Below are positions 21,124 to 63,932 of a DNA stretch of 64,000 nt, piece after piece; position 1 is the stretch's first letter, and each line of letters begins with the position of its first letter. Where the stretch lies: NCBI RefSeq assembly GCF_900095135.1, contig NZ_LT605205.1:4278001-4342000 (forward strand). The letters run 5' to 3'. The translations under genes and the position numbers were made by a program. Under the pieces are notes generated by a model. The model worked only from the letters and a program-made list of their open reading frames with translations. It ran no database searches and was not told the origin of the DNA. The stretch is from Proteiniphilum saccharofermentans. Its GTDB lineage: Bacteria > Bacteroidota > Bacteroidia > Bacteroidales > Dysgonomonadaceae.

Positions 21124-22545
21124 TTATATCTTATAAAAATCTTCCCATCCTTTTCTCGGAGGCTCCCCGGTGAGATATGCATTCGCAAAGGTATCGTTGG
21201 TAACCCGTTTGGTATTGCGGTCGAACACAATCTTGCGGTTTAGCCGCTGTGCAGCTACACCCAGGCAGAACACCTGACTCAGAGGAGCGGATATTTCAAA
21301 CGGAGAACGTGTTTTCTCCTTGCCCTGGCAAGCCAACAGGAAGTTTGCAAAATGGTCGGATGGACTCTTCGGCACTTCGGGAAGGTCTTTCTCCATCGCT
21401 TTTGCCTTCTCTTCAGGGATAATGCTCAGTGTACTACCATGCGATCCTCCCTTGAAGGTAAGTTCCTTGCTATAAATCTCTTTCCCGGGATTCAGTTTGG
21501 CCGGCTGTATCTGTCCACCTCCCACAGATGGAATATTAGGGTCAAGTTCCGAAACACCGTATCCTTGGGGAACTGACGGAATATTGTCCAGACCATCATA
21601 CCAGGTGATAACCAGCGGCGGCATGTTGCCCCGTGCCGGAAATTTGAATTCTATGGTGCTCGACATCGGGAAGAAATAATCGTTATGATCTTTCAGTTTC
21701 AATGGAGTGACTTCTTCCGGTAGACCCAGATCGAGGAATTCGTGCACCGTGTCGATAATATGTGCACCCCAGTCGCCCAAGGCACCCATTCCAAAATCGT
21801 ACCAGCAGCGCCACTGCCCGTAATGGAAATCTTTGTTGTAGTCATGGTATCGCTGTGCCATCAACCATATGTCCCAATCCAGCGTTTCGGGGATAGGTTC
21901 GGCAGCGGGGAATTTTTTGATATTGGGATCCCATCCGTGCCAGCGACGCGGGTTGTTCATATGCGCCGTGACAGCCGTCACATCTTTGATAATACCTGCC
22001 TCTTTCCAGGCTTTAAACTGGAAATAGTTGGCCTCCGAATGGCCCTGGTTACCCATCTGAGTGACTACATTCGGATACTTCTTTGCCGCTTTCAGGAGCA
22101 GTTCCGATTCATGAAAAGTACGTGTCAAGGGTTTTTCCACGTAAACATGTTTGCCTTCGGCCATCGACATCATTACCGCCGGGAAGTGAGCAAAGTCGGG
22201 AGTAGCAATAGCCACTGCCTCAATCTCGTTACCCATTTTGTCAAACATTTCCCTGAAATCTTTGAACCGTTTTGCATTGGGAAACTTGTCGAGTGCCTTC
22301 TTTGTATGTTCAGCTCCCAAATCAACATCACAAAGGGCAACTACGTTGGCTAATCCCGTCTTGTCGAAATCGTTGATGATTTCCCATCCCCTGTTTCCAA
22401 TACCGATATGGGCCAGATTCACCTTTTTATTGGCACCTGCAACCCTACTGTAACTGGCAGCATTCATTTTGGTAGATATACCGCCCATGGCCAACCCTGC
22501 TGACGCCAGAGCTGTGTTTTTGATAAATTCTCTTCTCGTTGTCAT
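21124..22545 (-). CDS. Gfo/Idh/MocA family oxidoreductase, Tat-exported
   Basis: This 473-residue NAD(P)-dependent oxidoreductase opens with a twin-arginine signal (TTRREFIKNTALASAGLAMG), so the folded, cofactor-loaded enzyme is exported to the periplasm. The Rossmann part shows HIGIGNRGWEIINDF near 47-60, ALCDVD, and the family signature YVEKPLTRTFHESE at about 135-148. The C-terminal substrate domain includes WRCWYDFGMGALGDWGAHIID, typical of the secreted subgroup in Bacteroidota. It is 24 bp upstream of the two-domain DUF1080 protein. A joint role in oxidising a sugar at C3 before cleavage is an inference from characterised DUF1080 systems. It differs in length and sequence from the other Gfo/Idh/MocA protein at 57.5 kb. 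Confidence 0.85.
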   Translation of the reverse strand: MTTRREFIKNTALASAGLAMGGISTKMNAASYSRVAGANKKVNLAHIGIGNRGWEIINDFDKTGLANVVALCDVDLGAEHTKKALDKFPNAKRFKDFREMFDKMGNEIEAVAIATPDFAHFPAVMMSMAEGKHVYVEKPLTRTFHESELLLKAAKKYPNVVTQMGNQGHSEANYFQFKAWKEAGIIKDVTAVTAHMNNPRRWHGWDPNIKKFPAAEPIPETLDWDIWLMAQRYHDYNKDFHYGQWRCWYDFGMGALGDWGAHIIDTVHEFLDLGLPEEVTPLKLKDHNDYFFPMSSTIEFKFPARGNMPPLVITWYDGLDNIPSVPQGYGVSELDPNIPSVGGGQIQPAKLNPGKEIYSKELTFKGGSHGSTLSIIPEEKAKAMEKDLPEVPKSPSDHFANFLLACQGKEKTRSPFEISAPLSQVFCLGVAAQRLNRKIVFDRNTKRVTNDTFANAYLTGEPPRKGWEDFYKI

Positions 22546-22622: not shown

Positions 22623-23906
22623 TTAAGCAAACCGGTCTTTATGTGCCCATAAACCAAGAGCAGGACTCGAGATATAGTAGACCTCCTCTCCATCGTCAAG
22701 CCTGTTAAAGCCCTCTTTGAGGCGCAAGGGATCATACTTCTGCATAATCTCATCGATATCGCCCCAATGGAACCCGACGCTCTCTATCTCTTCCCGCGTA
22801 AGATTCCAGGCCTCTTTACCGGGACAGTAGGTGACAGAAAAACGCCCTTCAGAAGATCCGTGAATAAGATGTGCTGCTGCACCCAGATTATTCCTGAGTT
22901 CCTGGTTTTCGGATACCGCTTTCAAAGTATAATCCGTTCCGAAATAGCCATATTTACGGATCAGCAAATCAATAGCTTTGTCTTCTCCGAATTCTTTCAA
23001 TGCCGGAGCCAGTACGATCAGTTCACCTCGGTCGGCAATAGCCATCCGTGTGCGGTAGATCGATTTATTCCCTAACCATGTGCTTTTAAATTCGGTAGGA
23101 TCGAGCCATACAATCACCTTCTTCAATGGTTTTTCCACCATCACGAAGTTGACCTGCAAAGAGAGCCGGGCTGCACGGTCGAATACCTCTAAGTCGTCCC
23201 CCACAAACAGACCGTAGGTCTGCTGCACTCCTTCGGAATTTACCCCTACCACAGTCAGGACATAAACGATAGGCAGCTCTTTTAAATAGTTTTCGGTAGC
23301 ATAGTTAAATACACGCCTGACCGGAGTATCAGATTTTCCCATCATCCGTTCCATACCGTAAACGGCTCCTATATAATGACTCTTATTGATCCCTTCGCTT
23401 CCACCGGTACCAACCAGGATATTCTTGTTGTAGTTGGCCATCCCCACTACTTCATGAGGAACTACCTGTCCGATGGAGAGGATAAGGTCGAAACCGCCTT
23501 CTACCAATAATTTATTTACTTGTGCCGGCCAGGCGAAATCCACTTTACCTTCCGAGATATCACGAATGTACTCAGCCGGCACCTCACCCAACGTAATTAC
23601 ATCATTCCTCCAGTCATGGTCGCGAAAAAGTGTTTTAGGCGTCTTTCCAAACATATGGTCGATCTGCCCTTCAGTCATGGGGGTATGTGTCCCCAATGCC
23701 GGGAGAATATCAGTCAGTTTGTCACCGTAATATTCCCATGTGATTTCGGTAAGTTCACCGGCACGGCTGGGCAGGCGGGTATAATCAGGCGGAACGGCAA
23801 GAACTTTTTGCCGTTCGCCCAATTTATCCAATGCTTCATACAATCCCCTCCTCATATCCTCATGAGAGAGAGCGGTCGTGGGAGAACCATTTTCGTAATA
23901 AATCAT
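22623..23906 (-). CDS. LarA-like nickel-pincer hydroxyacid epimerase
   Basis: This is a 427-residue member of the lactate racemase (LarA, DUF2088) family. The residues that hold and use the nickel-pincer nucleotide cofactor in LarA appear conserved: His74 (in GTHTPMT), His151 (in VVPHEVVG), Lys161 and His177. The last three have the same 10- and 16-residue spacing as H174, K184 and H200 of Lactobacillus LarA. A DYTR motif (41-44) also matches. Family members invert C2 of 2-hydroxyacids, and some act on aldonates such as gluconate. It sits among genes for 6-phosphogluconate dehydrogenase, a PfkB kinase and mannonate formation, so mannonate/gluconate 2-epimerase is a reasonable guess. No LarB, LarC or LarE cofactor genes are in the window. 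Start: ATG at 23906. Confidence 0.8.
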   Translation of the reverse strand: MIYYENGSPTTALSHEDMRRGLYEALDKLGERQKVLAVPPDYTRLPSRAGELTEITWEYYGDKLTDILPALGTHTPMTEGQIDHMFGKTPKTLFRDHDWRNDVITLGEVPAEYIRDISEGKVDFAWPAQVNKLLVEGGFDLILSIGQVVPHEVVGMANYNKNILVGTGGSEGINKSHYIGAVYGMERMMGKSDTPVRRVFNYATENYLKELPIVYVLTVVGVNSEGVQQTYGLFVGDDLEVFDRAARLSLQVNFVMVEKPLKKVIVWLDPTEFKSTWLGNKSIYRTRMAIADRGELIVLAPALKEFGEDKAIDLLIRKYGYFGTDYTLKAVSENQELRNNLGAAAHLIHGSSEGRFSVTYCPGKEAWNLTREEIESVGFHWGDIDEIMQKYDPLRLKEGFNRLDDGEEVYYISSPALGLWAHKDRFA

Positions 23907-24023
23907 CCTTTTTAAGTGAAAAGTGAATAATTAATAATGAAAAATTGGGGATATCGGATGTGGGAACTTCCAGACTTTTCACTCTCCCTAGTCCCCGGTC
24001 TTTCCACCTTTTTACACCAAATA
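23907..24023. repeat. Spacer with heptanucleotide repeats
   Basis: The spacer between the 6-phosphogluconate dehydrogenase and LarA-like genes contains four head-to-tail 7-mers at 23914-23941: AAGTGAA twice, TAATTAA, TAATGAA. The part nearer the dehydrogenase gene (about 23975-24005) reads, on the minus strand, AAAGACCGGGGACTAGGGAG, the same wording as the linkers after both PfkB kinase genes. Confidence 0.6.
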
Positions 24024-25478
24024 TCAAACATCATACGTCGTAGAGGCAGTGTTTCCGCCACGTCCGGTCCAATCGGTATGGAAGAACTCGCCACGTGCTT
24101 TGTCCACCCTTTCATACTGATGGGCACCGAAATAGTCACGCTGCGCCTGCAACAGGTTAGCCGGGAGTCGTGCGCTTCTGAAACCATCGAAATAGCACAA
24201 AGCTGAAGTAAGTGCCGGTACAGGAATTCCATTCTGTAAAGCTGTTGCACAAACTCTGCGCCAGCTCTCTTCTGCTGATAACACTGCTCCTTTGAAGAAG
24301 TCGTCAAGCAAGAGATTTTCCAATAAGGGGTTGTTATCAAACGCTTTCTTGATATCACCCAGGAAACGGGAGCGGATAATACATCCACCGCGCCACATCA
24401 GGGCGATCCCCCCGTAATTAAGGTTCCAGTCATATTCTTTGGCTGCTTCCATCATCAGGTCGTAACCCTGTGCATAGGAGATAATTTTGGCGCCATAAAG
24501 CGCTTTCTCCAGGTCATTGACGAATTGCTGTTTATCTCCTTTGAAACCGGATTTTTTTCCGGAGATGACTTCCGAAGCTTTTACCCTCAGATCTTTTTGA
24601 GCCGAGAGACAACGCGAAAAGACCGACTCGCCGATCAGTGTAAGCGGAATACCCAGATCGAGCGCTGTCACAGCAGTCCATTTACCGGTACCTTTCTGGC
24701 CTGCGGTATCAAGGATTTTTTCTACCAATGGACTTCCATCCTCATCCTTATACGCCATGATATCTGTGGTGATCTCGATCAGGTAGGAATCCAGCACGCC
24801 GCTGTTCCACCTTTTGAATACTTCATGCTGCTCAAAAGCATCCATGCCGAGCAGTTCTTTCATCAGGTGATATGCTTCGTTGATAATCTGCATATCGCCG
24901 TACTCGATGCCGTTGTGGACCATCTTCACGAAGTGGCCGGCACCGTTCTCTCCCACCCAGTCGCAGCAGGGAACACCCCCATCGACTTTAGCAGCAACCG
25001 CCTGAAAGATCTCTTTCACATGAGGCCACGCTTCCGGCGATCCGCCCGGCATCATGGAAGGCCCTTTGAGGGCTCCCTCTTCACCACCGGAAACGCCAGT
25101 ACCGATATAGAGCAATCCTTTACTCTCTACATATTTCGTTCTGCGGATGGTGTCGGGGAAATGGCTGTTCCCGCCGTCGATAATAATATCACCCGGTTCA
25201 AGCAGCGGGATGAGTTGTTCGATAAAATCGTCCACAGGCTTACCCGCTTTTACCAGCATCATCACTTTGCGTGGCCGCTCTAAGGATTCTACCAACTCCT
25301 GCAGGGAGTGTGCACCGATAAAATTTTTCCCTTTTCCCCGTCCGTTGACAAACGCATCTACTTTGTCAACCGTACGGTTGAACACGGCTACCGTATAGCC
25401 CTTACTTTCCATATTTAAGACCAGATTTTCACCCATCACGGCCAATCCGATCAATCCGATATCTGCTTTTTTATTCAT
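24024..25478 (-). CDS. gnd: 6-phosphogluconate dehydrogenase, decarboxylating
   Basis: This enzyme oxidises 6-phosphogluconate to ribulose 5-phosphate and CO2 with NAD(P)+. The 484-residue protein is of the long dimeric type. It has the Rossmann motif GLAVMGENLVLN, VFNRT for coenzyme ribose binding, IIDGGNSHFPDT, the catalytic HFVKMVHNGIEYGD segment, DTAGQKGTGKWT and the substrate-binding WRGGCIIRS. The ATG at 25478 (MNKKADIGL) is preferred because family members begin there; an ATG at 25499 and a TTG at 25505 are in frame but extend into repeat-derived spacer. It lies between a LarA-like epimerase and a PfkB kinase in a uronate gene cluster, which is unusual for an oxidative pentose-phosphate gene and suggests gluconate 6-phosphate is made locally. 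Confidence 0.9.
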   Translation of the reverse strand: MNKKADIGLIGLAVMGENLVLNMESKGYTVAVFNRTVDKVDAFVNGRGKGKNFIGAHSLQELVESLERPRKVMMLVKAGKPVDDFIEQLIPLLEPGDIIIDGGNSHFPDTIRRTKYVESKGLLYIGTGVSGGEEGALKGPSMMPGGSPEAWPHVKEIFQAVAAKVDGGVPCCDWVGENGAGHFVKMVHNGIEYGDMQIINEAYHLMKELLGMDAFEQHEVFKRWNSGVLDSYLIEITTDIMAYKDEDGSPLVEKILDTAGQKGTGKWTAVTALDLGIPLTLIGESVFSRCLSAQKDLRVKASEVISGKKSGFKGDKQQFVNDLEKALYGAKIISYAQGYDLMMEAAKEYDWNLNYGGIALMWRGGCIIRSRFLGDIKKAFDNNPLLENLLLDDFFKGAVLSAEESWRRVCATALQNGIPVPALTSALCYFDGFRSARLPANLLQAQRDYFGAHQYERVDKARGEFFHTDWTGRGGNTASTTYDV

Positions 25479-25499
25479 TTCTATATTATTATATTCCAT

Positions 25500-25527
25500 A
25501 TTCAAAATTCAAGATTCAAGATTTGTC
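25500..25527. repeat. Heptanucleotide repeat block
   Basis: Four 7-mers in a row: ATTCAAA, ATTCAAG, ATTCAAG, ATTTGTC. They lie directly before gnd and run up to its possible upstream start codons. Confidence 0.65.
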
Positions 25528-25541
25528 TTACGGCGATTGTT

Positions 25542-25736
25542 AATTGACTACGTCGAACGTTGTTTCAATTCAGATTTGGGATGTTGGATTTGGATATTAG
25601 GAATCGTTTCAGACTGATCCATTGGTAATTAGTAATTGGTAATTAAAATCACCTTCCCTCTGTTCCCGTTCTCCCCAGTCTCCCGATCTCCTCAGTCTTC
25701 CTACTTTCCTCGTCTCCCCGGTCTTCAACGGACCAC
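25542..25736 (-). repeat. Duplicated kinase-tail linker, copy 1
   Basis: On the minus strand this block starts in the last codons of the PfkB kinase gene (AGAGTGGT.CGTTGAAGACC) and runs most of the way to gnd. It matches 63056-63227, after the second PfkB kinase, with only scattered substitutions, one ~27-base insertion here, and one fewer heptamer (GGTAATT, AGTAATT, GGTAATT at 25624-25644 on the plus strand). The two copies are inverted relative to each other. The two kinases themselves are far less similar, so the linker is a repeat in its own right or was copied recently. Confidence 0.75.
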
Positions 25737-26804
25737 TCTCGCGTTACCTTTCCAGATGCTCCATATCACTTCCTCATCGGCCGGCTGGGCATAATCTGTC
25801 AGGAAGGTAGTAGCCAGTGCACCACTCGCCCAGGCAAACTGCACCCATTTTTCGGGTTCCATCCCTTTCAGGATGCTATAGAGCAATCCCCCCACAAAAC
25901 CGTCACCACCACCAATCCGATCCATCACGTTGATCCTCCGTAATGGAGCTTCGTACCAGTTCCCATTTTCATACACAATAGCACCCCAGAGATGCTCATT
26001 GGCGCTAATCACCTCACGCAGCGTATTGGCAAAAACCGAAACATGAGGAAACGCTTTATGCGCATTCAGGATCATCCCTTTGAAAGCATCCAGCGTTCCA
26101 CCAATATTTTCACCTCCTGCTTTCGGACCTTCAATACCGAGGCAAAGCTGAAAATCTTCTTCATTACCTATAACTATATCGGAAAGAGAAACAATCTCCG
26201 TAAATGCTTCTTTCAACTCCTTTTCCCGACCCTTCCAAAAAGTCGCGCGGTGATTCAGGTCGAAAGAAATTAGGGTATCATGCTTTTTGGCATAACGCGC
26301 TATTTCGAGACAGAAGTTGCTTGTGTCAGGAGAAAGTGCCGCAATAAGGCCGGAAAGGTGTACCACTTGTACGCCTTCCTTACCGAAGATCCGTTCCAGA
26401 TCAAAATCTTTTACATTCAGCGTTTTTCCCACTTCACCTGCCCGGTCGTTCTGTACCCGCGGACCACGCAATCCAAAACCGCTGTCGGCAATATTGAATT
26501 GATGCCGATATCCCCAGGGATCGCCCTGAGGCACCTCAGGCCCCTCATACTCCATATTGCGTGCCTTCAGGTCAGCCTTGATAAAAGCAGCGATCGGGCT
26601 ATCTTTCACAAAAGTTGTGAGTACCTTTACAGGGAGACCGAGATAAGAGGAGATACTTGCCACATTGGTCTCTGCGCTGGTTGCCTGCATCCGAAACATA
26701 TTGGTACTCTGCACCGGCTGTGCATCTACCGGCGTAATGCGTACCCCCATACTGGTAGGTACCACCAATGAATATTTGAATTCTTTTCTTAATACTAAAG
26801 ACAT
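25725..26804 (-). CDS. PfkB-family sugar-acid kinase
   Basis: This 359-residue carbohydrate kinase is of the ribokinase/PfkB fold. The C-terminal signature DRIGGGDGFVGGLLYS holds the catalytic Asp and anion hole, and SFDLNHRATFWKG with IVIGNEEDF matches the 2-keto-3-deoxygluconate kinase subgroup. The N-terminus is longer than in the second kinase at 62.0 kb and lacks its GEIMLRL opening, so the two are diverged paralogues. Default substrate would be 2-keto-3-deoxygluconate. The neighbours (gnd downstream, a LarA-like epimerase, a mannonate-type SDR upstream) also allow gluconate as substrate, giving 6-phosphogluconate for gnd. The two cannot be separated from sequence alone. The last residues, ARVVR, match the end of the other kinase (GRVVR). 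Confidence 0.8.
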   Translation of the reverse strand: MSLVLRKEFKYSLVVPTSMGVRITPVDAQPVQSTNMFRMQATSAETNVASISSYLGLPVKVLTTFVKDSPIAAFIKADLKARNMEYEGPEVPQGDPWGYRHQFNIADSGFGLRGPRVQNDRAGEVGKTLNVKDFDLERIFGKEGVQVVHLSGLIAALSPDTSNFCLEIARYAKKHDTLISFDLNHRATFWKGREKELKEAFTEIVSLSDIVIGNEEDFQLCLGIEGPKAGGENIGGTLDAFKGMILNAHKAFPHVSVFANTLREVISANEHLWGAIVYENGNWYEAPLRRINVMDRIGGGDGFVGGLLYSILKGMEPEKWVQFAWASGALATTFLTDYAQPADEEVIWSIWKGNARVVR

Positions 26805-26843
26805 TTTGATTGATGTGATAATTTATTAATTTGATGATGTGGC

Positions 26844-26909
26844 GATTGAGAATTGACGATTGACAGTTAACCACATCCCATATTTTAAATTTTGAATTTT
26901 GAATCTGAA
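26844..26909. repeat. Heptanucleotide repeat blocks
   Basis: Two runs of 7-mers lie between the SDR gene and the PfkB kinase gene: GATTGAG, AATTGAC, GATTGAC, AGTTAAC at 26844-26871, then ATTTTAA, ATTTTGA, ATTTTGA, ATCTGAA at 26882-26909. Confidence 0.65.
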
Positions 26910-26915
26910 ATCCAA

Positions 26916-27728
26916 TCAAATACTGAACGAATCGAAGCCTCCGTCAACGATGGCTACCGTTCCCGTCACAAATTTCGAAGCATCGCTTACCAGATAATGG
27001 AGCGTTCCCAACAAGTCTTCAGGATTCCCGAATCGGCGGAAAGGGGTGTGTGCAATAATGGTATTTCCCCGTGCGGAATAGGATCCATCGGGATTAGTGA
27101 GTAATGCCCTGTTCTGCTCTGTAATGAAAAAACCGGGACATAACGCATTCACTCGAAAATCTTCACCGAATTTAATAGCCAGCTCTCCTGCCATATATTT
27201 GGTGAAGTTAGTAACTGCCGCTTTGGCTGCGCCATATCCTGCGACACGCGTTAGCGGACGCAAAGCCGATGCAGAAGAGATATTTACGATATTACCCTTC
27301 TTCTCTCTGACCATATATTCAGCAAAAACCAGTATGGGGATAACCGTTCCCATCAGATTCAGATCGACCACCTTCCGGAAATCGTCAGCTTTCAAATCGA
27401 AGATAGTATTATCGGGACCGATAGTCGCACCCGGCATATTTCCACCGGCACCATTGATCAGCACATCTATCTTGCCGTATTTGGCAGCGATTTCTTCAGC
27501 ATTTCTCTTCAGCACTACCTCATCAGTCACATCAGTTTGAAGGAACATGGCATCTCCTCCGGCAGCTTTTACTTTTTGTATCAGTTCGTCGCCTTTTTCC
27601 TTGTTTCGCGCCAGTACTGCCACTTTTGCACCGTGTGCGGCCAGATACTCTACCATTGAAGAACCCAATACTCCGGTTCCACCCGTGATAACAATCACTT
27701 TTCCTTTAATATCAAATAATTCGTACAT
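26916..27728 (-). CDS. SDR oxidoreductase, probable D-mannonate dehydrogenase
   Basis: This is a 270-residue short-chain dehydrogenase. It has the coenzyme motif TGGTGVLGSS (about 15-24), NGAGG in place of NNAG, the active-site Ser in NISSAS and the YGAAKAA catalytic pair. The C-terminus VTGTVAIVDGGFDSFSI is typical of the sugar-acid SDRs. In Bacteroidota and Thermotoga, SDRs of this kind reduce fructuronate to D-mannonate in place of the classical UxuB. The next genes upstream, uxaE and uxaC, would supply fructuronate from galacturonate. Gluconate 5-dehydrogenase activity is the main alternative. It probably begins its own transcript: a promoter-like sequence lies just upstream at 27752-27782. 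Confidence 0.75.
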   Translation of the reverse strand: MYELFDIKGKVIVITGGTGVLGSSMVEYLAAHGAKVAVLARNKEKGDELIQKVKAAGGDAMFLQTDVTDEVVLKRNAEEIAAKYGKIDVLINGAGGNMPGATIGPDNTIFDLKADDFRKVVDLNLMGTVIPILVFAEYMVREKKGNIVNISSASALRPLTRVAGYGAAKAAVTNFTKYMAGELAIKFGEDFRVNALCPGFFITEQNRALLTNPDGSYSARGNTIIAHTPFRRFGNPEDLLGTLHYLVSDASKFVTGTVAIVDGGFDSFSI

Positions 27729-27751
27729 AATTTATTGATTTAATGATCCGG

Positions 27752-27782
27752 CAAAAATAGGCTACCTGTTTTATTTTTCAAC
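27752..27782 (-). promoter_or_regulatory. Probable Bacteroidota promoter for the SDR gene
   Basis: On the minus strand a TATTTTTG box (27759-27752) matches the -7 consensus TAnnTTTG. It is preceded after exactly 19 bases by GTTG (27782-27779), one base from the -33 consensus TTTG. It lies 24 bp before the SDR start codon. Confidence 0.5.
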
Positions 27783-27823
27783 CTTATTTCCCGTAAAATC
27801 TTCTTCATTAAAACTAGCTTACT

Positions 27824-29074
27824 CTATATATTAAACAGTCTCCTGAGATGCCTGTCGTAGATATTCTCTTCCACACATCTACCGATTACGTCGGCATATT
27901 TGACGAGCAGGTCGGTATATTCGCTTCCCATTTCCGCAGCTACTTTATACGCCACATGAATGAGTTGACGGAAATTGGGATTGTAGTCGGGATGTCCCGG
28001 GATATGCCGGAGCGTATTGGCAAACTTCTCCCCCGTCCAGCTATTGACCTCCTCCACGGAAGGGAGTTGTGAGCCATCTATATTGATCACATCGGCATAG
28101 GGAGCGCACAGTTCCTCCTGCCTGTTATATGAATTCTCATAAATCTTTTTTGCCAGCTCAAGCCCTTCTCCGCCAGCTACGGCCAGGCCGATCACCTCCT
28201 CGAGCCAGGTGGTACCGGCGGTTTTCAGATGGAGCCCCTTGTCGTGTCTTGCGATAATGTCTGCCATGATCGGGTAAATGGAGAATTTATCACTCCCCGA
28301 GTGAACGCTCAGCTTCAACTCTTCAGGCAGTCCAAATTCTTTCACTGCAAAATCGATCACAAGCACATCTTCTTCAAACTCTTTGGCAAACTGTACCAGA
28401 TCGCCTACGTAATCGACGCCCTTATTAAAGCGGCCTGTAAACTTAGGAGCAATTGTCTGGGCAGGTACACCCTTGTCGGCAAGCATTTTCAAAATAAAAA
28501 GCAACTCGACCGGAGTCTGAGGAGACTCTACTTCGTCCATAGAAACTTCCGTGATGAAGTTACCTTCACCCTTTTCTTTTCTCAGATAGGCATAGATTTC
28601 CGATGCATGTTGTGTGGCGGCAAGGAACTTGGCTGCGATATCACGCAATAACTCTTCAGTTACATTCAAAGGCTCCTCCATACCGGGAATTTGCAACCTG
28701 CCCATATATTTCTGACAGGAAGCTACAAAAGCGGCTACTTCTTCCGGACTGCTCTCATTACCGATAAATGCAGCTACATCCAACGTGAAGAAGTCAGATA
28801 CCTCTACATATTTAGCAACCGTGCTGAGATTGATATGATCGGCATCCACAAAATAGAGCCCTTTGAAATCCAGGGCATTGACAGCCTCGTCAGCCTCCCT
28901 GCGGGTATCTGCCGGTTGTGTACCAACATAAATATGTTCCCTGTTAGATTTATTCCATACCGGACTGATATCCAATCCTCCTTTTTCATTCGCCTTCATG
29001 ATAGCACGCAGCTGCGCTTTTCCCTGATGAGTGAACCTATCTCCTACTCCTATACTGTATTTTCCTAATTGCAT
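27824..29074 (-). CDS. uxaE: Tagaturonate epimerase
   Basis: This 416-residue protein is recognised as the UxaE family, which epimerises D-tagaturonate to D-fructuronate and so merges galacturonate breakdown with the glucuronate branch. Family stretches visible are YSIGVGDRFTHQGKAQL at the N-terminus, HIYVGTQPADTR, GLYFVDADHIN, APKFTGRFNKGVDYVGD, LKLSVHSGSDKFSIYP and HLKTAGTTWLEEVIG. The His, Asp and Glu residues in these are plausible metal ligands. The gene lies between uxaC (51 bp upstream) and an SDR that would use its product. With UxaE present, the UxaB/UxaA branch through altronate is not needed, which fits the broken uxaB at 53.2-53.5 kb. Confidence 0.85.
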   Translation of the reverse strand: MQLGKYSIGVGDRFTHQGKAQLRAIMKANEKGGLDISPVWNKSNREHIYVGTQPADTRREADEAVNALDFKGLYFVDADHINLSTVAKYVEVSDFFTLDVAAFIGNESSPEEVAAFVASCQKYMGRLQIPGMEEPLNVTEELLRDIAAKFLAATQHASEIYAYLRKEKGEGNFITEVSMDEVESPQTPVELLFILKMLADKGVPAQTIAPKFTGRFNKGVDYVGDLVQFAKEFEEDVLVIDFAVKEFGLPEELKLSVHSGSDKFSIYPIMADIIARHDKGLHLKTAGTTWLEEVIGLAVAGGEGLELAKKIYENSYNRQEELCAPYADVINIDGSQLPSVEEVNSWTGEKFANTLRHIPGHPDYNPNFRQLIHVAYKVAAEMGSEYTDLLVKYADVIGRCVEENIYDRHLRRLFNI

Positions 29075-29125
29075 ATGATTATTATTTTTCTTGTTGTTTA
29101 CTTGTAAATAAATGGATAGTAATTT

Positions 29126-30532
29126 CTAAAATCTAAAAAACTCTCTTGCATTGTTATAAGATATATTCTCTACCATCTCCCCAAGGAATTTCATTTCGGA
29201 AGCAGGCAACAGCCCCTGCTCGACGTCATTCCCAATGAGATTACATAATATCCGCCGGAAATATTCGTGACGCGGATAAGAGAGGAAACTGCGTGAATCG
29301 GTCAACATTCCTACAAAGCGACTCAGCAGTCCCAGATTAGAGAGAGAGTTCATCTGCGCCTCCATCCCTGTCTTCTGATCAAGAAACCACCATCCTGAAC
29401 CAAACTGTATCTTTCCTGCCACTGATCCATCCTGGAAGTTGCCGATCATAGTAGCGATGAGATCGTTATCCCTGGGGTTCAGGTTATAAATGATGGTCTT
29501 GGCCAACCGGTTGTCTTTGTCCAGTTGATCGAAGAAACGGCTCATCGCTTTTGCTACATTAAAATCACCGATAGAATCGAAACCGGTATCAGGACCGAGT
29601 TGTTTGAACAAGCGGGTATTGTTGTTACGGATAGCTCCATAATGGAATTGTTGTGTCCATCCTTTTTCCCAATCCATTATGGCACCTTCATAAAGCATGG
29701 CCGATTTGAATTTCAGTATCTCCTCTCTTACCAGTTCTTTTCCACCATACACTTTATTGAAGATCTGTTCAATTTCGGCCTGTGTATAGGGTTCGGCATA
29801 GAACTCCTCGATACCGTGGTCGGAAAGTTTACAACCCACACCGGCAAAGAAGTCGTGTCGCTTACGAAGTGCTTCGATCAGGTCGCTGAACCGGTTGATG
29901 GCCACTCCCGACACATCAGAAAGTTTTTCCAGGTATGCACGGTACTCTTGCGGATTCTCCACCGCCATCGCTTTATCGGGACGCCAGGTCGGCAGGACTT
30001 TGATCTCAAATTGCTCCTCTTTAAGCGCCAGATGATGCTCTAAACTATCGGCAGGATCATCGGTGGTACAGACCACCTCCACTTTAAATTTTTTCATCAA
30101 TCCCCGGGCAGAAAATTCAGGAGTACGCAACTGCTCTGTACATTTGTCGAATATCTCTTTCGCCGTTTCAGGTTTCAGAAGCTTGTCCACACCAAAAGCA
30201 GTCTTTAATTCCAGGTGAGTCCAATGATACAATGGGTTCCGCATGGTGTAGGGTACCGTTTCGGCCCATTTCTCAAATTTTTCCCAATCGGAGGTATCTT
30301 TTCCGGTGCAGTACCTCTCTTCCACTCCATTGGTACGCATGGCACGCCACTTATAGTGGTCTCCTTCGAGCCATATCTGACCCAGATTATCGAAAGCATG
30401 ATCCTTGGCGATATACTCAGGGTTCAGGTGACAATGGTAGTCAATAATAGGTTGCATTTTTGCATGTTCATGATACAACTCTTTCGCTGCATCCGTCTGA
30501 AGCAAAAAATCTTCATGAATAAAACTTTTCAT
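29126..30532 (-). CDS. uxaC: Glucuronate/galacturonate isomerase
   Basis: Uronate isomerase, 468 residues, the usual length. It converts D-galacturonate to D-tagaturonate and D-glucuronate to D-fructuronate, the first step for saturated uronates. The amidohydrolase-fold metal motif YHCHLNP has His33 and His35; WRAMRTNG, VVCTTDDPADSLEHH, GWTQQFHYGAIRNNN and MLTDSRSFLSYPRHEYFRR are family signatures. It is the first gene of the uxaC-uxaE pair. Its upstream region contains a TAACTTTG box on the minus strand (30705-30698) without a good -33 element, and an inverted repeat TGTTCT-N6-AGAACA at 30587-30604 that could be an operator. Confidence 0.95.
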   Translation of the reverse strand: MKSFIHEDFLLQTDAAKELYHEHAKMQPIIDYHCHLNPEYIAKDHAFDNLGQIWLEGDHYKWRAMRTNGVEERYCTGKDTSDWEKFEKWAETVPYTMRNPLYHWTHLELKTAFGVDKLLKPETAKEIFDKCTEQLRTPEFSARGLMKKFKVEVVCTTDDPADSLEHHLALKEEQFEIKVLPTWRPDKAMAVENPQEYRAYLEKLSDVSGVAINRFSDLIEALRKRHDFFAGVGCKLSDHGIEEFYAEPYTQAEIEQIFNKVYGGKELVREEILKFKSAMLYEGAIMDWEKGWTQQFHYGAIRNNNTRLFKQLGPDTGFDSIGDFNVAKAMSRFFDQLDKDNRLAKTIIYNLNPRDNDLIATMIGNFQDGSVAGKIQFGSGWWFLDQKTGMEAQMNSLSNLGLLSRFVGMLTDSRSFLSYPRHEYFRRILCNLIGNDVEQGLLPASEMKFLGEMVENISYNNAREFFRF

Positions 30533-30712: not shown

Positions 30713-31942
30713 TTATTTGATAATTACCGATACAGAATGATTTAATTTTCTTACCATCTCATCCAGACATTTCCGAAATTCTTTTTCATTTTTTACGGGT
30801 TGCCAGTCAAGTTCCCAGGTAGGCATAAAATAATATTCCACACATCCGTTTTGGGGAGAGAGCACCACCAGATGATTCAGCGCATCTTCGGTGATCTCTT
30901 TCAACTGGTCATTCCTATAAAAAACAGCAAGCCCCATCATATCGTTATTCAGACTTTGTTTGCCGAAAGTAGCGATATAGGACCATCCTGTCTTACTATT
31001 ATTTTCTTTAGCGGGCATAATGAGTTCAGCATCTTTACTCTTAATAATGCCTGTGGCAATATTATCAATCGGACGATCTACTTTCAATTCCATGTGAGAA
31101 GCACGGTTCCCGGCATCGATCGATATAAGAGACTCCAGATTACATTTGACACCGTTTGCATCCCAACCGTAATAGGTAGTCATCACCTGCGCACGGATTT
31201 TCCCATCGGCAGGGATATAGCAAGTCACACTGTCCCGTTTTTCTATCCTCACAGCTTTGGTTCCGTCCCATACTGCAATGGAACCCAAACCAAGGGTATT
31301 TCCCACTTTCATATTGTCCATTCCCCATTCAGCCATCTCATGATAACTGTCATATCCGTCCACCCCAACAAAAGGCAGCACGATCCCGGATGTCTTCTTC
31401 CCGAAGACATCTACCGCATTTCGTTGATCAAGGTAAAACCGGAACCCGACTATATCACTTTCCCAACCAGGGCCTTCATATTTAATATAGTAGGCGTGGT
31501 CTCGGAAAGTACCGTCGACCGTAAGACGGTTAGGCTTTACCCATGAATAGCCCCCTTCGTACTTCGGCCCGACGAATTTTCCTCCGATCTTATGGGCCAA
31601 TTCAGCATAGGCACGTTTGGGATACTTATCGGCGGCCCCCTTCTTCACCTGAAAAACCTTTTTACTGTTACCTTCGAGGCAGGCCACCGGAAAGATTGCT
31701 TTGTGATTACCATTGATATCGGTTACGACCTCCAGGGGAAGTTCTTCACCACCTTCAGCCACCATCATATATTGGCCGTAAGGCAATGAAAGTTCTTCCA
31801 CCGGTATCTCCACGGTATAGTGGCGTATCTCTTCTACCGATCTGTTCTCCACAATTATACTTTGTCCGTAGCCTTGTACTGCGAACAGAAAGAAAAACAC
31901 TGCCGGGAATAAGCGATTTCCCAAAAATGATATTACTTGCAT
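30713..31942 (-). CDS. DUF4861 family exported protein
   Basis: This 409-residue protein with a signal peptide (about 1-26, ending VQGYGQ) belongs to DUF4861. It opens with IIVENRSVEEIRHYTVEIP, a beta-sandwich-like segment, and contains SYHEMAEWGMDNMKVGNTLGLGS at about 195-220 and a GYSWVKPNRLT loop. The paralogue at 60.9 kb carries the same YHE...G.D..KVG.TLGLG motif, so those residues are likely functional. Family members occur in polysaccharide loci that handle uronic acids, but I know of no assigned activity, and a lyase or hydrolase role is a guess. It is the gene nearest the divergent susC and may share its control region. Confidence 0.75.
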   Translation of the reverse strand: MQVISFLGNRLFPAVFFFLFAVQGYGQSIIVENRSVEEIRHYTVEIPVEELSLPYGQYMMVAEGGEELPLEVVTDINGNHKAIFPVACLEGNSKKVFQVKKGAADKYPKRAYAELAHKIGGKFVGPKYEGGYSWVKPNRLTVDGTFRDHAYYIKYEGPGWESDIVGFRFYLDQRNAVDVFGKKTSGIVLPFVGVDGYDSYHEMAEWGMDNMKVGNTLGLGSIAVWDGTKAVRIEKRDSVTCYIPADGKIRAQVMTTYYGWDANGVKCNLESLISIDAGNRASHMELKVDRPIDNIATGIIKSKDAELIMPAKENNSKTGWSYIATFGKQSLNNDMMGLAVFYRNDQLKEITEDALNHLVVLSPQNGCVEYYFMPTWELDWQPVKNEKEFRKCLDEMVRKLNHSVSVIIK

Positions 31943-44262: not shown

Positions 44263-44271
44263 ATACTTCTA

Positions 44272-58916: not shown

Positions 58917-58947
58917 TTTGATATAATTAGAATAAATAGTAACTTTG
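58917..58947 (+). promoter_or_regulatory. Bacteroidota promoter for kduI
   Basis: TTTG (58917-58920), 19 bases, then TAACTTTG (58940-58947): an exact match to the -33 TTTG and -7 TAnnTTTG consensus with ideal spacing. It sits in the 157-bp gap between the oxidoreductase gene and kduI, so kduI and later genes can be transcribed separately from the upstream lyase genes. Confidence 0.85.
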
Positions 58948-58949
58948 TG

Positions 58950-58959
58950 CGTGTACACG
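58950..58959. promoter_or_regulatory. Palindrome at the kduI transcription start
   Basis: CGTGTACACG is a perfect 10-bp palindrome starting three bases after the -7 box, where transcription should begin. A dimeric repressor bound there would block the promoter. The regulator is not identifiable from this window. Confidence 0.5.
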
Positions 58960-59019
58960 GGCTCTATTGTAGAGGGTGTTCTCCATCGCAAACAACAGAT
59001 TATCAAAAAACAAACATAT

Positions 59020-59862
59020 ATGAAGACAAATTATCAATTACGTTATGCAGCACATCCCGAAGATGCAAAATCTTATGACACGCAGCGTTTGCGAAGAGAT
59101 TTTCTCATAGAAAAAATATTTGCTCCGGATGAAGTGAATATGGTTTATTCGATGTACGACCGTATGATTGTAGGGGGAGCGATGCCGGTAAACGAACCGT
59201 TACACCTGGAAGCGATAGACCCGCTGAAGCAACCTATTTTTTTATGCCGCAGGGAACTGGGTATCTTTAATGTAGGTGGCAAGGGAAGAGTAAAGGTAGG
59301 AGAAACTGTTTTCGATCTCGATTATAAGGAGGCGCTCTATCTGGGTTCCGGTGAACGTGAGGTTTATTTTGAGAGCGACGACGCAGCCAAACCGGCAAAA
59401 TTCTATTTCAATTCGGCTACGGCCCACCGTAACTACCCCGACAAGAAAGTAACCAAAGCCGATGCGGTAGTCGCTGAAATGGGTGCGTTGGAAACCTCCA
59501 ACCGAAGGAATATCAATAAGATGATCGTGAACCAGGTACTACCTACCTGCCAGTTGCAGATGGGGATGACAGAACTGGATCCCGGAAGCGTATGGAATAC
59601 CATGCCGGCACATATCCACTCCCGCCGGATGGAGGCCTACTTCTATTTTGAAGTGCCCGAAGACCAGGCGGTATGCCATTTTATGGGTGAACCCGACGAG
59701 ACACGTCATATCTGGATGCATAATGACCAGGCGGTACTCTCTCCCGAATGGTCGATCCACTCCGGTGCAGCCACCAGCAACTATACTTTCATCTGGGGTA
59801 TGGCGGGCGAGAATCTCGACTATGGCGATCAGGATTTTTCAAAAATAACAGATCTACGATAA
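59020..59862 (+). CDS. kduI: 5-keto-4-deoxyuronate isomerase
   Basis: KduI isomerises 5-keto-4-deoxyuronate, formed spontaneously from unsaturated galacturonate, to 2,5-diketo-3-deoxygluconate. The ATG at 59020 ([17 protein letters not shown]) gives 280 residues, the standard family length; a longer frame from 58945 would begin inside the promoter. Conserved segments are [40 protein letters not shown], and a metal-binding cluster with [18 protein letters not shown] and [13 protein letters not shown]. It is followed after 70 bp by kduD, the next step in the pathway. Confidence 0.95.
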
Positions 59863-59932
59863 AAATAACAGCCCGGAACTACACGGATATGATGTGAAAA
59901 ATCTCGGGACTATAAATTAAGAAAGAAATAAT

Positions 59933-60724
59933 ATGGTTAATTTTTCATTAGAAGGAAAAATAGCACTGGTAACAGGTGCATCTTACGGTATCGGGTTTTC
60001 CATGGCCTCTGCTTTTGCAGAAGCAGGAGCAAAAATCGTATTTAACGATATCAATCAGGATTTAGTGGACAAGGGCCTTGCGGCTTATAAGGAGAAAGGG
60101 ATAGAAGCCCACGGTTATGTATGTGACGTTACAAATGAAGGAGCGGTGAACCAATTCATTGCCCGGGTAACGGAAGAAGTTGGGGTCATAGATATCCTGG
60201 TGAATAATGCCGGTATCATTAAACGTATACCGATGCACGAGATGAGCGCCGCCGAATTCCGCCAGGTGATCGATATCGACCTGAACGGGCCGTTTATCGT
60301 TTCAAAGGCGGTCATTCCCCACATGATCAAAAAAGGGCACGGAAAAATCATCAATATCTGCTCCATGATGAGCGAACTGGGACGTGAAACCGTTTCTGCC
60401 TATGCGGCCGCAAAAGGCGGATTGAAGATGTTGACGAAAAATATCTGTTCCGAGTACGGGGAACATAACATCCAGTGCAACGGTATCGGTCCGGGGTACA
60501 TCGCCACACCGCAGACCGCTCCCCTAAGGGAAAGACAACCCGATGGATCACGCCATCCATTCGATTCCTTTATCATCGCCAAGACACCCGCAGCACGGTG
60601 GGGAACACCTGAAGACCTGGCAGGGCCTGCCGTCTTCCTTGCTTCGGAAGCATCTAATTTTGTGAACGGACATATACTGTACGTTGACGGGGGTATTCTG
60701 GCTTATATCGGAAAACAACCATAA
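59933..60724 (+). CDS. kduD: 2-keto-3-deoxygluconate oxidoreductase (SDR)
   Basis: This 263-residue short-chain dehydrogenase has LVTGASYGIGFSMA for coenzyme binding, NNAGII, the catalytic Ser in NICSMMS and YAAAKGG. The C-terminal FVNGHILYVDGGILAYIGKQP is typical of the KduD/gluconate 5-dehydrogenase group. Directly after kduI, reduction of 2,5-diketo-3-deoxygluconate to 2-keto-3-deoxygluconate is the natural reading. Gluconate 5-dehydrogenase is the closest alternative and cannot be ruled out by sequence. It is related to, but distinct from, the SDR at 26.9 kb. Confidence 0.85.
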   Translation: MVNFSLEGKIALVTGASYGIGFSMASAFAEAGAKIVFNDINQDLVDKGLAAYKEKGIEAHGYVCDVTNEGAVNQFIARVTEEVGVIDILVNNAGIIKRIPMHEMSAAEFRQVIDIDLNGPFIVSKAVIPHMIKKGHGKIINICSMMSELGRETVSAYAAAKGGLKMLTKNICSEYGEHNIQCNGIGPGYIATPQTAPLRERQPDGSRHPFDSFIIAKTPAARWGTPEDLAGPAVFLASEASNFVNGHILYVDGGILAYIGKQP

Positions 60725-60775
60725 GTAGGAAGGTGGATAAGTGGTTTGGAGACTGGGGAAGCAAGGAGACTGGGG

Positions 60776-60854
60776 CAATCTCATTCAATCTCCCATCAAT
60801 CTCCCATCAATCTCATTCAATCTCATTCAATCTTTCTCAATCTCATTCAATCTC
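60776..60854. repeat. Decamer tandem repeat array
   Basis: Seven and a half units of CAATCTCATT or its variants (CAATCTCCCAT, CAATCTTTCT) run head to tail between kduD and the DUF4861 gene. Just before it, GGAGACTGGGG occurs twice (around 60748 and 60765), the same wording as the linkers after the PfkB kinases. Not a CRISPR array: units are directly abutting. Confidence 0.85.
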
Positions 60855-60891
60855 TTAGCGAATAAAAATCAACAAATCAAAATAGTTGGTA

Positions 60892-62031
60892 ATGCAAACA
60901 AAATTTTTCGTGCTAATTCTGGCAGCAACAATCTTTATCGGATGTGGCCCCTCAAAACAAGCGTTGACAGTGGAGGTAAGCAACCCGGGAGCAATAGATA
61001 GAGAAAATGAGATGGTAGAGCTCACCTGGGAAACGATACAGCAAAAACTATCGCTTTCTGCAGAGGAAACGATCATCATAAACGGTGACGACGGGAAACA
61101 ACTCCCCTATCAACTTGTAACCAATGGAACGGGAAACAAGGAAACTCTCATCTTCCCGGTCTCCCTGCAGGCAGGACAAACAGCCTCTTTTCAGATTGCA
61201 GTAGGCAAACCAGAAACATTTACACCTCTTGTATACGGACGCCTGGTACCCGAACGGAAAGACGACTTCACATGGGAAAATAACCGTACCGCATTTCGGG
61301 TATACGGTCCAGCGCTAAAGGCAACCGGTGAAATCAGTAATGGGATGGACTTCTGGGCCAAGAAAACGGGATCATTGATCATCGACAAGTGGTATAAAGA
61401 CGATCTGGCAGGTGTGGCCTCATACCATGAGGATCATGGGGAAGGACTGGATTTTTACAAGGTAGGAAGGACCCTTGGCCTTGGAATGACTGCTCCTGTT
61501 GATAACGATACATTATGCTTAGGCGACAATTTCGTAACAGCAGAGATCCTCGATAACGGACCGCTTCGTATTACTTTTAAACTCACTTACGATCCTTACC
61601 AAGCAGGAGACAAGACAATAACGGAAACCCGCGTCATCTCCCTGGATGCATATGAACTCTTCAACAAGGTGACCAATATTTTCGAGGTAGAAGCCGATGG
61701 ACTGACTGTTGCTACCGGAATTGTAATGGAAAAAGGTAAACCGGAAATAACCTTTGGCGACAACTCCGGCATTATTGCTTACGAAACCCCTGCCGATAAC
61801 GTCAACGGGACCATTTATACCGCTGCTATCCACCCCAACGGATTCACTGATATCAAAGTGGCAAACGGACATTACCTGGGATTGAACAATTATAAATCCG
61901 GCACATCCTATACCTACTACGCTGGTGGAGGATGGAGCAAAGCCGGATTCGACAGCTTTGATTCCTGGGTCCAGTTTGTAAAACTGGAGAAAGAAAAAAT
62001 AGATCAACCTTTAACCATTCAGATAAAATAA
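60892..62031 (+). CDS. DUF4861 family lipoprotein
   Basis: This 379-residue lipoprotein has its lipobox at IFIGC (Cys18 from the ATG at 60892, preferred over a TTG six bases earlier). It is a paralogue of the DUF4861 protein at 30.7 kb: both open with a VSN/VENRS-type strand followed by W/Y-rich segments, and both carry a SYHE...G.D..KVG.TLGLG motif, here at about 175-202. The lipid anchor here and plain secretion there suggest different locations. It overlaps nothing but ends one base before kdgK, so the two are tightly coupled. Function is unassigned; its link to uronate loci suggests action on a uronic-acid-containing oligosaccharide. Confidence 0.75.
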   Translation: MQTKFFVLILAATIFIGCGPSKQALTVEVSNPGAIDRENEMVELTWETIQQKLSLSAEETIIINGDDGKQLPYQLVTNGTGNKETLIFPVSLQAGQTASFQIAVGKPETFTPLVYGRLVPERKDDFTWENNRTAFRVYGPALKATGEISNGMDFWAKKTGSLIIDKWYKDDLAGVASYHEDHGEGLDFYKVGRTLGLGMTAPVDNDTLCLGDNFVTAEILDNGPLRITFKLTYDPYQAGDKTITETRVISLDAYELFNKVTNIFEVEADGLTVATGIVMEKGKPEITFGDNSGIIAYETPADNVNGTIYTAAIHPNGFTDIKVANGHYLGLNNYKSGTSYTYYAGGGWSKAGFDSFDSWVQFVKLEKEKIDQPLTIQIK

Positions 62032-62032
62032 A

Positions 62033-63070
62033 ATGCAGAAAGTGGTAACTTTCGGCGAGATCATGTTGCGTCTTGCCACACCTGATTATAAAAGATTCAT
62101 CCAGTCGGATCATCTTACGGCCACCTTTGGCGGTGGCGAAGCCAACGTAGCTGTTTCCCTGGCAAACTACGGTATCCCCGTGGAGTTTGTCACCCGCCTG
62201 CCCGAAAACGATATTGCAGCATGGTGTATCTCCGACCTCAGGAAAATGAATGTCGGAACACAGCATATCCTGCACGGCGGAGAACGGGTAGGGATTTATT
62301 TCCTTGAGACCGGTGCCGTGGCACGTCCCTCAAAAGTAGTCTACGACAGGGCCCATTCCTCCATCGCGGAAGTGGAAAAAGGGATGTTCAACTGGAAAGA
62401 GATACTCAAAGATGCATCATGGTTCCACTGGACAGGTATCACTCCCGCACTCTCACAGGGAGCTGCCGATGCCTGCCTTGAAGCGATCCGGACAGCCAAT
62501 GAACTGGGAGTAACCGTTTCATGTGACCTCAACTATCGGAAGAATCTCTGGAAATACGGAAAAAAGGCATCCGAAATCATGCCTGAACTGGTAAAGGGAT
62601 GCGATATTATCCTTGGGAATGAAGAAGATGCAGAGAAAGTGTTCGGCATCAAACCGGAGGGGTTCGAGGTAGAGCATACGTCAGGAGAGGTAGATGCAGC
62701 GGAATTCGAATCGGTTTGCCAACAGCTTATGCAGAAATTCCCGCGTGCGAAGAAAGTGATCATTACGTTGCGCGGTTCTATCAATGCCAATCACAATACC
62801 TGGGGCGGATGCCTCTATTCAGATAAACTCTATCAATCCAGAAGATATGATATTACCCATATCGTGGATAGAGTGGGTGGAGGCGACTCTTTCATGGGAG
62901 GACTCATTTACGGATTACTGACTTATACCGGTGACGACCAAAAGGCGCTCGACTTCGCCGTAGCAGCTTCCTGCTTAAAGCATACCATCTATGGCGATTT
63001 CAACCTGGTTACCGTAAAGGAAGTGGAAACACTGATGAAAGGCGACGGATCAGGAAGAGTGGTACGTTGA
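62033..63070 (+). CDS. kdgK: 2-keto-3-deoxygluconate kinase
   Basis: This is a 345-residue PfkB-family kinase. The N-terminal VVTFGEIMLRLATPDYKRF and GGGEANVAVSLANYG, the mid-region CDLNYRKNLWKYG and IILGNEEDAEKVFGI, and the C-terminal DRVGGGDSFMGGLIYG with the catalytic Asp are all typical of KdgK. It phosphorylates 2-keto-3-deoxygluconate to KDPG, the step between kduD and eda in this operon. It begins one base after the DUF4861 stop codon. Its last residues GRVVR and the DNA beyond match the end of the PfkB kinase at 25.7 kb. Confidence 0.9.
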   Translation: MQKVVTFGEIMLRLATPDYKRFIQSDHLTATFGGGEANVAVSLANYGIPVEFVTRLPENDIAAWCISDLRKMNVGTQHILHGGERVGIYFLETGAVARPSKVVYDRAHSSIAEVEKGMFNWKEILKDASWFHWTGITPALSQGAADACLEAIRTANELGVTVSCDLNYRKNLWKYGKKASEIMPELVKGCDIILGNEEDAEKVFGIKPEGFEVEHTSGEVDAAEFESVCQQLMQKFPRAKKVIITLRGSINANHNTWGGCLYSDKLYQSRRYDITHIVDRVGGGDSFMGGLIYGLLTYTGDDQKALDFAVAASCLKHTIYGDFNLVTVKEVETLMKGDGSGRVVR

Positions 63071-63227
63071 AGACCGGGGGATCGGGAGATTGGGGGGAAC
63101 GGAAACAGAGGGAAGGTGATTTTAATTACCAATTACCAATTACTAATTACCAATGGATCAGTCTGACACGATTCCCAATATTCAAATCCAACATCCTACA
63201 TCTCAATTGGAAATCGACGTAGTCAAA
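63056..63227 (+). repeat. Duplicated kinase-tail linker, copy 2
   Basis: This block starts in the last kdgK codons and matches 25542-25736 in inverted orientation. Landmarks shared are GTTGAAGACCGGGG, ACAGAGGGAAGGTGATTTTA, the AATTACC heptamers, CAATGGATCAGTCTGA and GACGTAGTCAA. This copy has four heptamers (63124-63151) against three in copy 1 and lacks a ~27-base stretch. Confidence 0.75.
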
Positions 63228-63260
63228 TCTTACATCCTAAATCCAAAATCTAAAATTAAA
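63179..63260. repeat. Heptanucleotide repeat blocks before eda
   Basis: Two runs: TATTCAA, ATCCAAC, ATCCTAC, ATCTCAA at 63179-63206, and AATCTTA, CATCCTA, AATCCAA, AATCTAA, AATTAAA at 63226-63260. The second ends three bases before the eda start codon, so the leader of eda is made of repeat. Confidence 0.75.
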
Positions 63261-63263
63261 AAA

Positions 63264-63932
63264 ATGGCTAAATTTACAAGACTACAAGTCTATCAGACCA
63301 TAGTAGATACGGGTATTGTACCTGTATTTTACCATTCCGATACCGAAGTGGCAAAAAAAGTGTTGAAAGCATGCTATGAAGGAGGTATCAGGGCGTTCGA
63401 ATTTACCAACAGGGGTGATTTTGCGCATGAGGTGTTTGCCGAACTGGTGAAGTGGGCAGACAAAGAATGCCCGGAGATGATATTGGGTATCGGATCCGTA
63501 GTAGATGCACCTACCGCGGCACTCTATATTCAATTGGGGGCAAACTTTGTAGTAGGCCCGTTGCTGAATCCGGAAGTATTTAAAGTATGTAACCGCAGGC
63601 AGATAGCCTATTCACCCGGTTGTGCCACTGTATCCGAGATTGGTCTGGCCCAAGAGCTGGGTGCCGAGATCGTAAAAGTATTTCCGGGTGGTAATGTAGG
63701 TGGGCCGTCATTCGTGAAAAACATCAAAGGACCTATGCCCTGGTCCAGGATTATGGTCACAGGCGGGGTAGAGCCTACCGAAGAAAATCTCTCGGCATGG
63801 TTTCGTGCAGGTGTAACAGCAGTCGGTATGGGTTCCAATCTATTTCCAAAAGAGGTGCTAAAGAACGGAGAATGGCATAAAATCACCGAATTATGTAGGG
63901 TGAGCTTGTCAATTGTCAAGAAATATCAGTAA
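63264..63932 (+). CDS. eda: KDPG/KHG aldolase
   Basis: Bifunctional 4-hydroxy-2-oxoglutarate / 2-dehydro-3-deoxy-phosphogluconate aldolase, which cleaves KDPG to pyruvate and glyceraldehyde 3-phosphate. The ATG at 63264 ([17 protein letters not shown]) gives 222 residues, the usual size; an in-frame ATG at 63153 would add 37 residues translated from spacer repeats and is rejected. Class I aldolase features: [19 protein letters not shown] with the catalytic Glu, [21 protein letters not shown], and the Schiff-base Lys in [15 protein letters not shown]. It closes the kduI-kduD-kdgK-eda pathway. Confidence 0.95.

Follow-up and report, generated by a model that had tools for sequence, protein, structure and literature searches.

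Our analysis of a 64,000-nucleotide stretch of the Proteiniphilum saccharofermentans genome (contig NZ_LT605205.1, positions 4,278,001 to 4,342,000, hereafter the window) points to an operon for galacturonate utilisation that includes a homolog of LarA (LarAH). The window is part of a single contig of 4,414,963 bases, and the genome is 100% complete. The minus strand carries six genes, namely uxaC, uxaE, a short-chain dehydrogenase/reductase (SDR) gene, a PfkB-family kinase gene, gnd and the LarAH gene, in this order and separated by gaps of 51, 95, 111, 219 and 117 bases; positions and profile searches confirmed this arrangement, which a first-pass annotation had already described. We consider it rather probable that the operon turns galacturonate into ribulose 5-phosphate via LarAH, the cofactor of which would most likely come from outside the cell or from a route other than the known one. 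UxaC would convert galacturonate to tagaturonate, UxaE would convert tagaturonate to fructuronate and the SDR would yield D-mannonate from it; the kinase and LarAH would then jointly produce 6-phosphogluconate, which Gnd would decarboxylate to ribulose 5-phosphate. For UxaC, UxaE and Gnd, function is predicted from family membership; we infer the product of the SDR, the inversion at C2 and the substrate of the kinase. LarAH would invert C2 by passing a hydride to a nickel-pincer nucleotide (NPN) attached to Lys161, and His74 and His151 would serve as acid/base residues. A pathway that leads from galacturonate to ribulose 5-phosphate is redox neutral (PMC6978723).

The clustering of the six genes exceeds chance, as the block is kept in relatives. 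The scan of named genomes covered 80 relatives (the best 80 of a longer list), and with 22 neighbourhoods from a sample of the phylum it gave 102 loci, 71 of which were usable, with 4 kb or more flanking LarAH on either side; related genomes are counted many times among them. In 69 of the 71 loci gnd lay on the strand of LarAH and no more than 5.5 kb from it; an SDR gene was present within 6 kb in 69 as well (it was missing there in L106 and L109) and a kinase gene within 5.5 kb in 68. Furthermore, 46/71 loci contained uxaC, uxaE or uxaB. The kinase fell in clade K1, that of the operon PfkB, in 54 loci and in clade K2 in 12, and it was pyrophosphate (PPi)-phosphofructokinase-like in 2. The kinase type thus varies, with another protein family in two loci, which fits a single kinase role. 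In those two loci the kinase slot is L096:9638-11896 (NF010675, 365 bits, cut-off 273) and L099:6138-8329. A hexonate kinase of the PFK family would be unusual.

The LarA-like protein falls under the NCBIfam model NF052594, 'nickel-dependent putative hexonate epimerase' (NPN_18), and is 97% identical to its counterpart in Proteiniphilum acetatigenes DSM 18083. Its best solved relative was the GntE of Thermotoga maritima (4nar), for which the residues equivalent to the LarA set are named in PMC7583248. The alignment with 4nar confirmed His74, His151, Lys161 and His177, the four residues picked out in the first-pass annotation, and revealed that Asp41, Arg44 and Lys281 are kept as well, completing the LarA set: D72, H108, H174 and K298, the catalytic residues of LarA, correspond to D41, H74, H151 and K281, and the NPN-binding R75, K184 and H200 to R44, K161 and H177. 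E152-V153, in the loop after the catalytic histidine, and W277 match the E-V/S and W features common to groups 18, 19 and 20 (PMC7583248). A345-H346, which we placed by motif at W358/T359 of LarA, is invariant and resembles the GntE signature of PMC11770544; unlike this motif-based placement, PMC7583248 assigns N348 of GntE2 to the W358 position.

All eleven scored positions were invariant in the window's protein, in 78 proteins from named genomes and in 6 and 15 group-18 proteins from genomes with and without the cofactor genes larB, larC and larE, respectively. No usable LarAH row came from L015 and L054 of the 80 named loci or from L108 (G014), hence 78 named proteins and 6 of the 7 from genomes with the cofactor genes. 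Thirteen other LarA homologs were scored as well, and their catalytic and NPN positions were likewise invariant. The ratio of nonsynonymous to synonymous substitution rates (dN/dS) of LarAH was 0.03-0.07 against five Proteiniphilum genomes, with dS exceeding 1 for three of these genomes, and it was similar for gnd and PfkB; selection on LarAH in the window's clade, which has no LarC, is purifying. The AlphaFold model of LarAH had a confidence score (pLDDT) of 83.5, and all 19 of 19 Foldseek matches at E <=0.001 belonged to the LarA superfamily, 4nar being the first. The pocket of the model was not used as an argument, as pLDDT is below 50 at residues 153-159, beside a catalytic histidine.

LarA homologs have been split into 25 groups (PMC7583248). 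GntE1 and GntE2 (groups 19 and 20), which epimerise mannonate to gluconate in vitro, and LarAH15 are D-gluconate 2-epimerases that have the fold and the catalytic residues in common with the window's LarAH, whereas for group 18 the same paper offers hexonate epimerisation as a hypothesis only. For this branch of the LarA superfamily the substrate is a prediction.

The operon kinase was compared with the 2-keto-3-deoxygluconate (KDG) kinase KdgK. In the kinase tree, which bears a long-branch warning, K1 (73 rows), K2 (13) and the KdgK clade (17, including the window's own KdgK at 62033-63070) are separate, and the operon PfkB is set apart from KdgK with support of 100/100. The window's KdgK scored 335 bits against the KDG kinase of T. 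maritima (2afb), whereas the operon PfkB scored 107. A YDR motif, presumably contacting the substrate in KDG kinases, occurs in all KdgK and K3 rows; in K1 it is NDR (73/73 rows) and in K2 YNR throughout. The PfkB fold is common to both, and the AlphaFold model of the operon PfkB (pLDDT 80.3) was closest to 4gm6 and to 2afb. In 15/71 loci a kinase best matching the window's KdgK sits beside a K1, K2 or PPi-phosphofructokinase-like kinase. Since K1 stands apart from KdgK, has an altered motif and co-occurs with KdgK, a role as KDG kinase is improbable for it; the natural candidate for its substrate would be mannonate or gluconate. The operon PfkB as the sole KDG kinase was rejected, as a kdgK gene exists in the window. 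We also dropped the argument that the operon PfkB scores below all NCBIfam cut-offs, as the window's KdgK does so too.

A galacturonate pathway of this kind was reportedly proposed for T. maritima by Rodionova et al. in 2012 (as cited in PMC6978723). The pathway is thus not new, and the window holds a Bacteroidota variant of it. In T. maritima it consists of UxaC, UxaE, UxaD, GntE, GntK and Gnd within the UxaR regulon (PMC3750489). The reactions are the same and gnd likewise lies inside the uronate cluster, though in the window the substrates of the SDR, the kinase and LarAH are predicted; a separate kdgA-kdgK-uxuB-uxuA operon also recalls the P. saccharofermentans genome (PMC3750489). However, the two systems differ in the kinase, which is GntK in T. 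maritima and a PfkB-family protein in the window (scored on the operon kinase), and in the LarA homolog, which belongs to group 20 in T. maritima and to group 18 here.

The route from mannonate through 6-phosphogluconate to ribulose 5-phosphate, as put forward in the first-pass annotation, is consistent with the gene order, the kinase tree and the absence of uxuA from many carriers of group-18 LarAH (see below), but we found no sequence feature that fixes its order of epimerisation before phosphorylation. The interpretation given in that annotation is partly supported, with the set of genes and its central inference upheld. We would give the reversed order an even chance. In that case PfkB would phosphorylate mannonate first and LarAH would act as a 6-phosphomannonate 2-epimerase, the overall route being the same. 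Extracts of Lactobacillus suebicus, in which mannonate also enters 6-phosphogluconate and Gnd, formed 6-phosphomannonate from mannonate and ATP, gave no gluconate without ATP, and converted 6-phosphogluconate to 6-phosphomannonate (PMC6978723). Moreover, the characterised GntEs have KM values for free mannonate in the millimolar range (120, 17 and 9.4 mM), and we found no test of the phosphorylated compound in the passages of the literature consulted. On the other side, GntE2 does act on free mannonate (PMC7583248), and gntE of T. maritima is paired with gntK, which is termed a gluconate kinase (PMC6978723). L. suebicus also differs from the window in that the kinase-first order was seen in extracts, the genes were not identified and the route continues into phosphoketolase (PMC6978723). 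This paper was the only one that our literature search for mannonate kinase or 6-phosphomannonate turned up.

Several observations weigh against the proposed operon function. gnd was not near LarAH in L103 and L108, and no K1, K2 or PPi-phosphofructokinase-like kinase was near it in L095, L108 and L109 among the 71 loci. Free mannonate may be a non-native substrate, given the high KM of the GntEs. No published assay of any group-18 enzyme or K1 kinase was found in the literature searched. The genome's single gnd copy is accompanied elsewhere by zwf with a pgl-like neighbour (by eye). larB, larC and larE are missing from this complete genome. Finally, mannonate has another possible fate. The first-pass annotation saw no mannonate dehydratase and took an intact uxuA in the same regulon as a sign against its route. 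The profile search of the operon proteins indeed detected no uxuA; however, one intact copy lies outside this operon, at 2689417-2690595, 1.6 Mb away along the contig. In 7/71 loci uxuA and LarAH also share a strand and lie no more than 5.5 kb apart; the canonical route can thus coexist with LarAH, and mannonate seems to be a branch point in some relatives. By eye, the genome's uxuA (L133:7190-10626) has AraC-like and LacI-like regulators next to it, and no uxaC or uxaE was noticed near it in 17 kb.

Could the canonical KDG route then account for the operon, with uxuA acting in trans, the operon PfkB as a second KDG kinase and LarAH acting on another hexonate? We regard this as unlikely. It would agree with uxuA in this genome, in 17 of the 25 named carriers searched and near LarAH in the loci just mentioned, and with the KDG kinase 2afb as a closest solved relative of PfkB. 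However, uxuA was missing from 16 of the 23 genomes of the phylum sample with a group-18 LarAH (7/23 have it), the KdgK clade is separate from K1, the YDR motif is changed in both K1 and K2, KdgK accompanies the kinase beside LarAH in 15/71 loci, and gnd is near LarAH in nearly all. zwf was present in 16 of these 23 genomes and missing in 7. Both uxuA and zwf were missing in six, five of which have gnd near LarAH, the exception being G014 (L108); these genome-wide searches concerned uxuA and zwf. In the window's genome, gnd probably serves both uronate and glucose 6-phosphate inputs, since it is the single copy and zwf is present; a gnd copy reserved for uronates was ruled out on the same grounds. 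The first-pass annotation had further restricted the kdu/kdgK/eda branch to unsaturated uronates. This was not borne out, because uxuA could feed kdgK as well.

The absence of the cofactor genes was studied further. In the window's complete genome, the profile search gave no match for LarC; the only AIRC protein was PurE-like, with 51 bits against the LarB cut-off of 175; and the LarE profile, with a cut-off of 150, produced just four matches, all weak at 35 bits or less. TIGR00268 at E 1e-20 found no LarE in the control C. glutamicum either, and this model may therefore miss some LarE. In contrast, LarC and LarE of the T. maritima control were above cut-off and LarB was matched. An incomplete assembly was excluded as the cause for the window's genome; it is unlikely for the phylum sample and possible for the named draft genomes. 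The first-pass annotation had held that such an absence would speak against the epimerase. The genes are indeed absent, but LarAH is intact and under purifying selection, so the epimerase is not refuted thereby. What is missing is a known source of the nickel-pincer cofactor, and this turns the finding into a more interesting cofactor question.

Among 392 genomes of the phylum, 23 had a group-18 LarAH above cut-off and 26 had LarC; LarB and LarE were searched in 51 of them, all at least 90% complete. The 23 carriers had either all three of LarB, LarC and LarE (7) or none (16), and 18 genomes with other LarA homologs likewise had all (8) or none (10). G097 and G240, with LarC but neither LarB nor LarE, were the only discordant cases among the 51. 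Any match to NF052594 was found in 45 genomes, and G004, G164, G254 and G322, with weak or partial matches, were left out of these counts. Of the four, G004 has LarC, and in G322 the match is a fragment of 39 positions, perhaps of a cut group-18 LarAH. In the named set, which was searched for LarC only, LarC was found in 10 of the 50 carriers searched, in 3 of the 14 carriers judged to be isolates from their titles and in none of 13 Dysgonomonadaceae genomes. Beyond the named genomes, the positives of the phylum sample, except G000, are of the 'same phylum' and not the 'same class', and therefore the pattern spans more than one class. It also extends beyond group 18: a second group of LarA homologs, scoring about 140-190 bits against the group-18 profile, was seen in 10 genomes without larB, larC and larE (L110-L118 and G278).

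In a tree of 72 group-18 proteins the LarC label requires at least 11 changes, well-supported branches force 9 of these, and close relatives differ: Mariniphaga sediminis has LarC, whereas Tangfeifania lacks it. The label is nevertheless clustered beyond chance, with 11 changes against a shuffled mean of 14.7 and only 5 of 500 shuffles as low. These results suggest that group-18 enzymes use NPN, that its supply does not depend on synthesis in the same cell and that the ability to make it appears and disappears among the carriers. The simplest reading would be that NPN or a precursor is imported, with biosynthesis by unknown enzymes as the main alternative. Import is known for other cofactors, and for vitamin B12 there is a comparable loss of synthesis genes with the enzyme kept. 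We tentatively propose, at somewhat less than even confidence, that NPN is traded or salvaged: Bacteroidota with group-18 LarAH would repeatedly lose larB, larC and larE, keep the enzyme and import NPN or a precursor (or use an undiscovered route) for galacturonate use via Gnd.

It is also possible, although we are inclined to doubt it, that genomes without larB, larC and larE make NPN by non-homologous enzymes, or that group-18 LarAH uses a different, related cofactor. All three genes are absent from most carriers and from over half of the genomes with other LarA homologs, yet the cofactor residues are invariant. However, LarC was commoner in the group-18 genomes (7/23) than in those without a match to the group-18 profile (10/347; Fisher p 2e-5, uncorrected for kinship), and the seven LarC-positive carriers have one match to the group-18 profile each, both of which tie the family to ordinary NPN; further, the 26 LarA-bearing genomes without the three genes have one match each to the LarB profile, of 30-51 bits and PurE-like. 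That LarAH is a functionless relic in the window's lineage, as the missing cofactor genes might indicate, was rejected as very improbable on its invariant active site and its low dN/dS in a clade of 17 proteins without LarC. The converse case, larBCE without larA, is already published (PMC11796402); no earlier report of a LarA homolog kept without larB, larC and larE was found in the literature searched. An intact cofactor enzyme with the known biosynthesis missing from 16 of 23 carriers would imply either that cells trade a nickel organometallic cofactor or that it is made by an undescribed route.

Table 1. Genes of the galacturonate operon and other features of the window (window positions).
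Feature	Position	Strand	Evidence
uxaC, glucuronate/galacturonate isomerase	29126..30532	-	NF002794, 671 bits (cut-off 387); PF02614
uxaE, tagaturonate epimerase	27824..29074	-	PF16257, 184 bits (cut-off 27); no NCBIfam match
SDR reductase, putative fructuronate to mannonate	26916..27728	-	NF006132 'D-mannonate oxidoreductase', 368 bits (cut-off 281), subfamily-level model
PfkB-family kinase, putative hexonate kinase (mannonate or gluconate)	25725..26804	-	PF00294; clade K1; NDR motif
gnd, 6-phosphogluconate dehydrogenase	24024..25505	-	TIGR00873, 753 bits; sole PF00393 match in genome
LarA homolog of group 18, putative nickel-pincer hexonate C2-epimerase	22623..23906	-	NF052594, 650 bits (cut-off 500)
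Gfo/Idh/MocA oxidoreductase, downstream of LarAH in the same run	21124..22545	-	PF01408
Protein taken for DUF1080, next after the Gfo/Idh/MocA gene	19741-21099		By eye
DUF4861 protein, upstream of uxaC	30713..31942	-	PF16153, 281 bits
kduI, kduD, DUF4861, kdgK (PfkB kinase), eda; canonical KDG branch	58945..63932	+	

The Gfo/Idh/MocA gene follows LarAH in many Dysgonomonadaceae loci as well. Genes for a pectinesterase/esterase fusion, GH43 and GH28 lie nearby at window positions 42394-47705, which fits a pectin utilisation locus. In 35/71 loci a PdxB-type protein was encoded on the strand of LarAH and at most 4.5 kb away from it, often between LarAH and gnd; the example at L022:12475-13602 reached 450 bits with NF001309 (cut-off 434), and the other 34 were recognised by similarity to it. 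In L096 and L099 the kinase slot also holds a protein of 296 amino acids, haloacid dehalogenase (HAD)-like by eye and with no NCBIfam match. In L105 a 296-amino-acid protein that begins similarly lies ahead of LarAH, and an open reading frame of the same length does so in L101.

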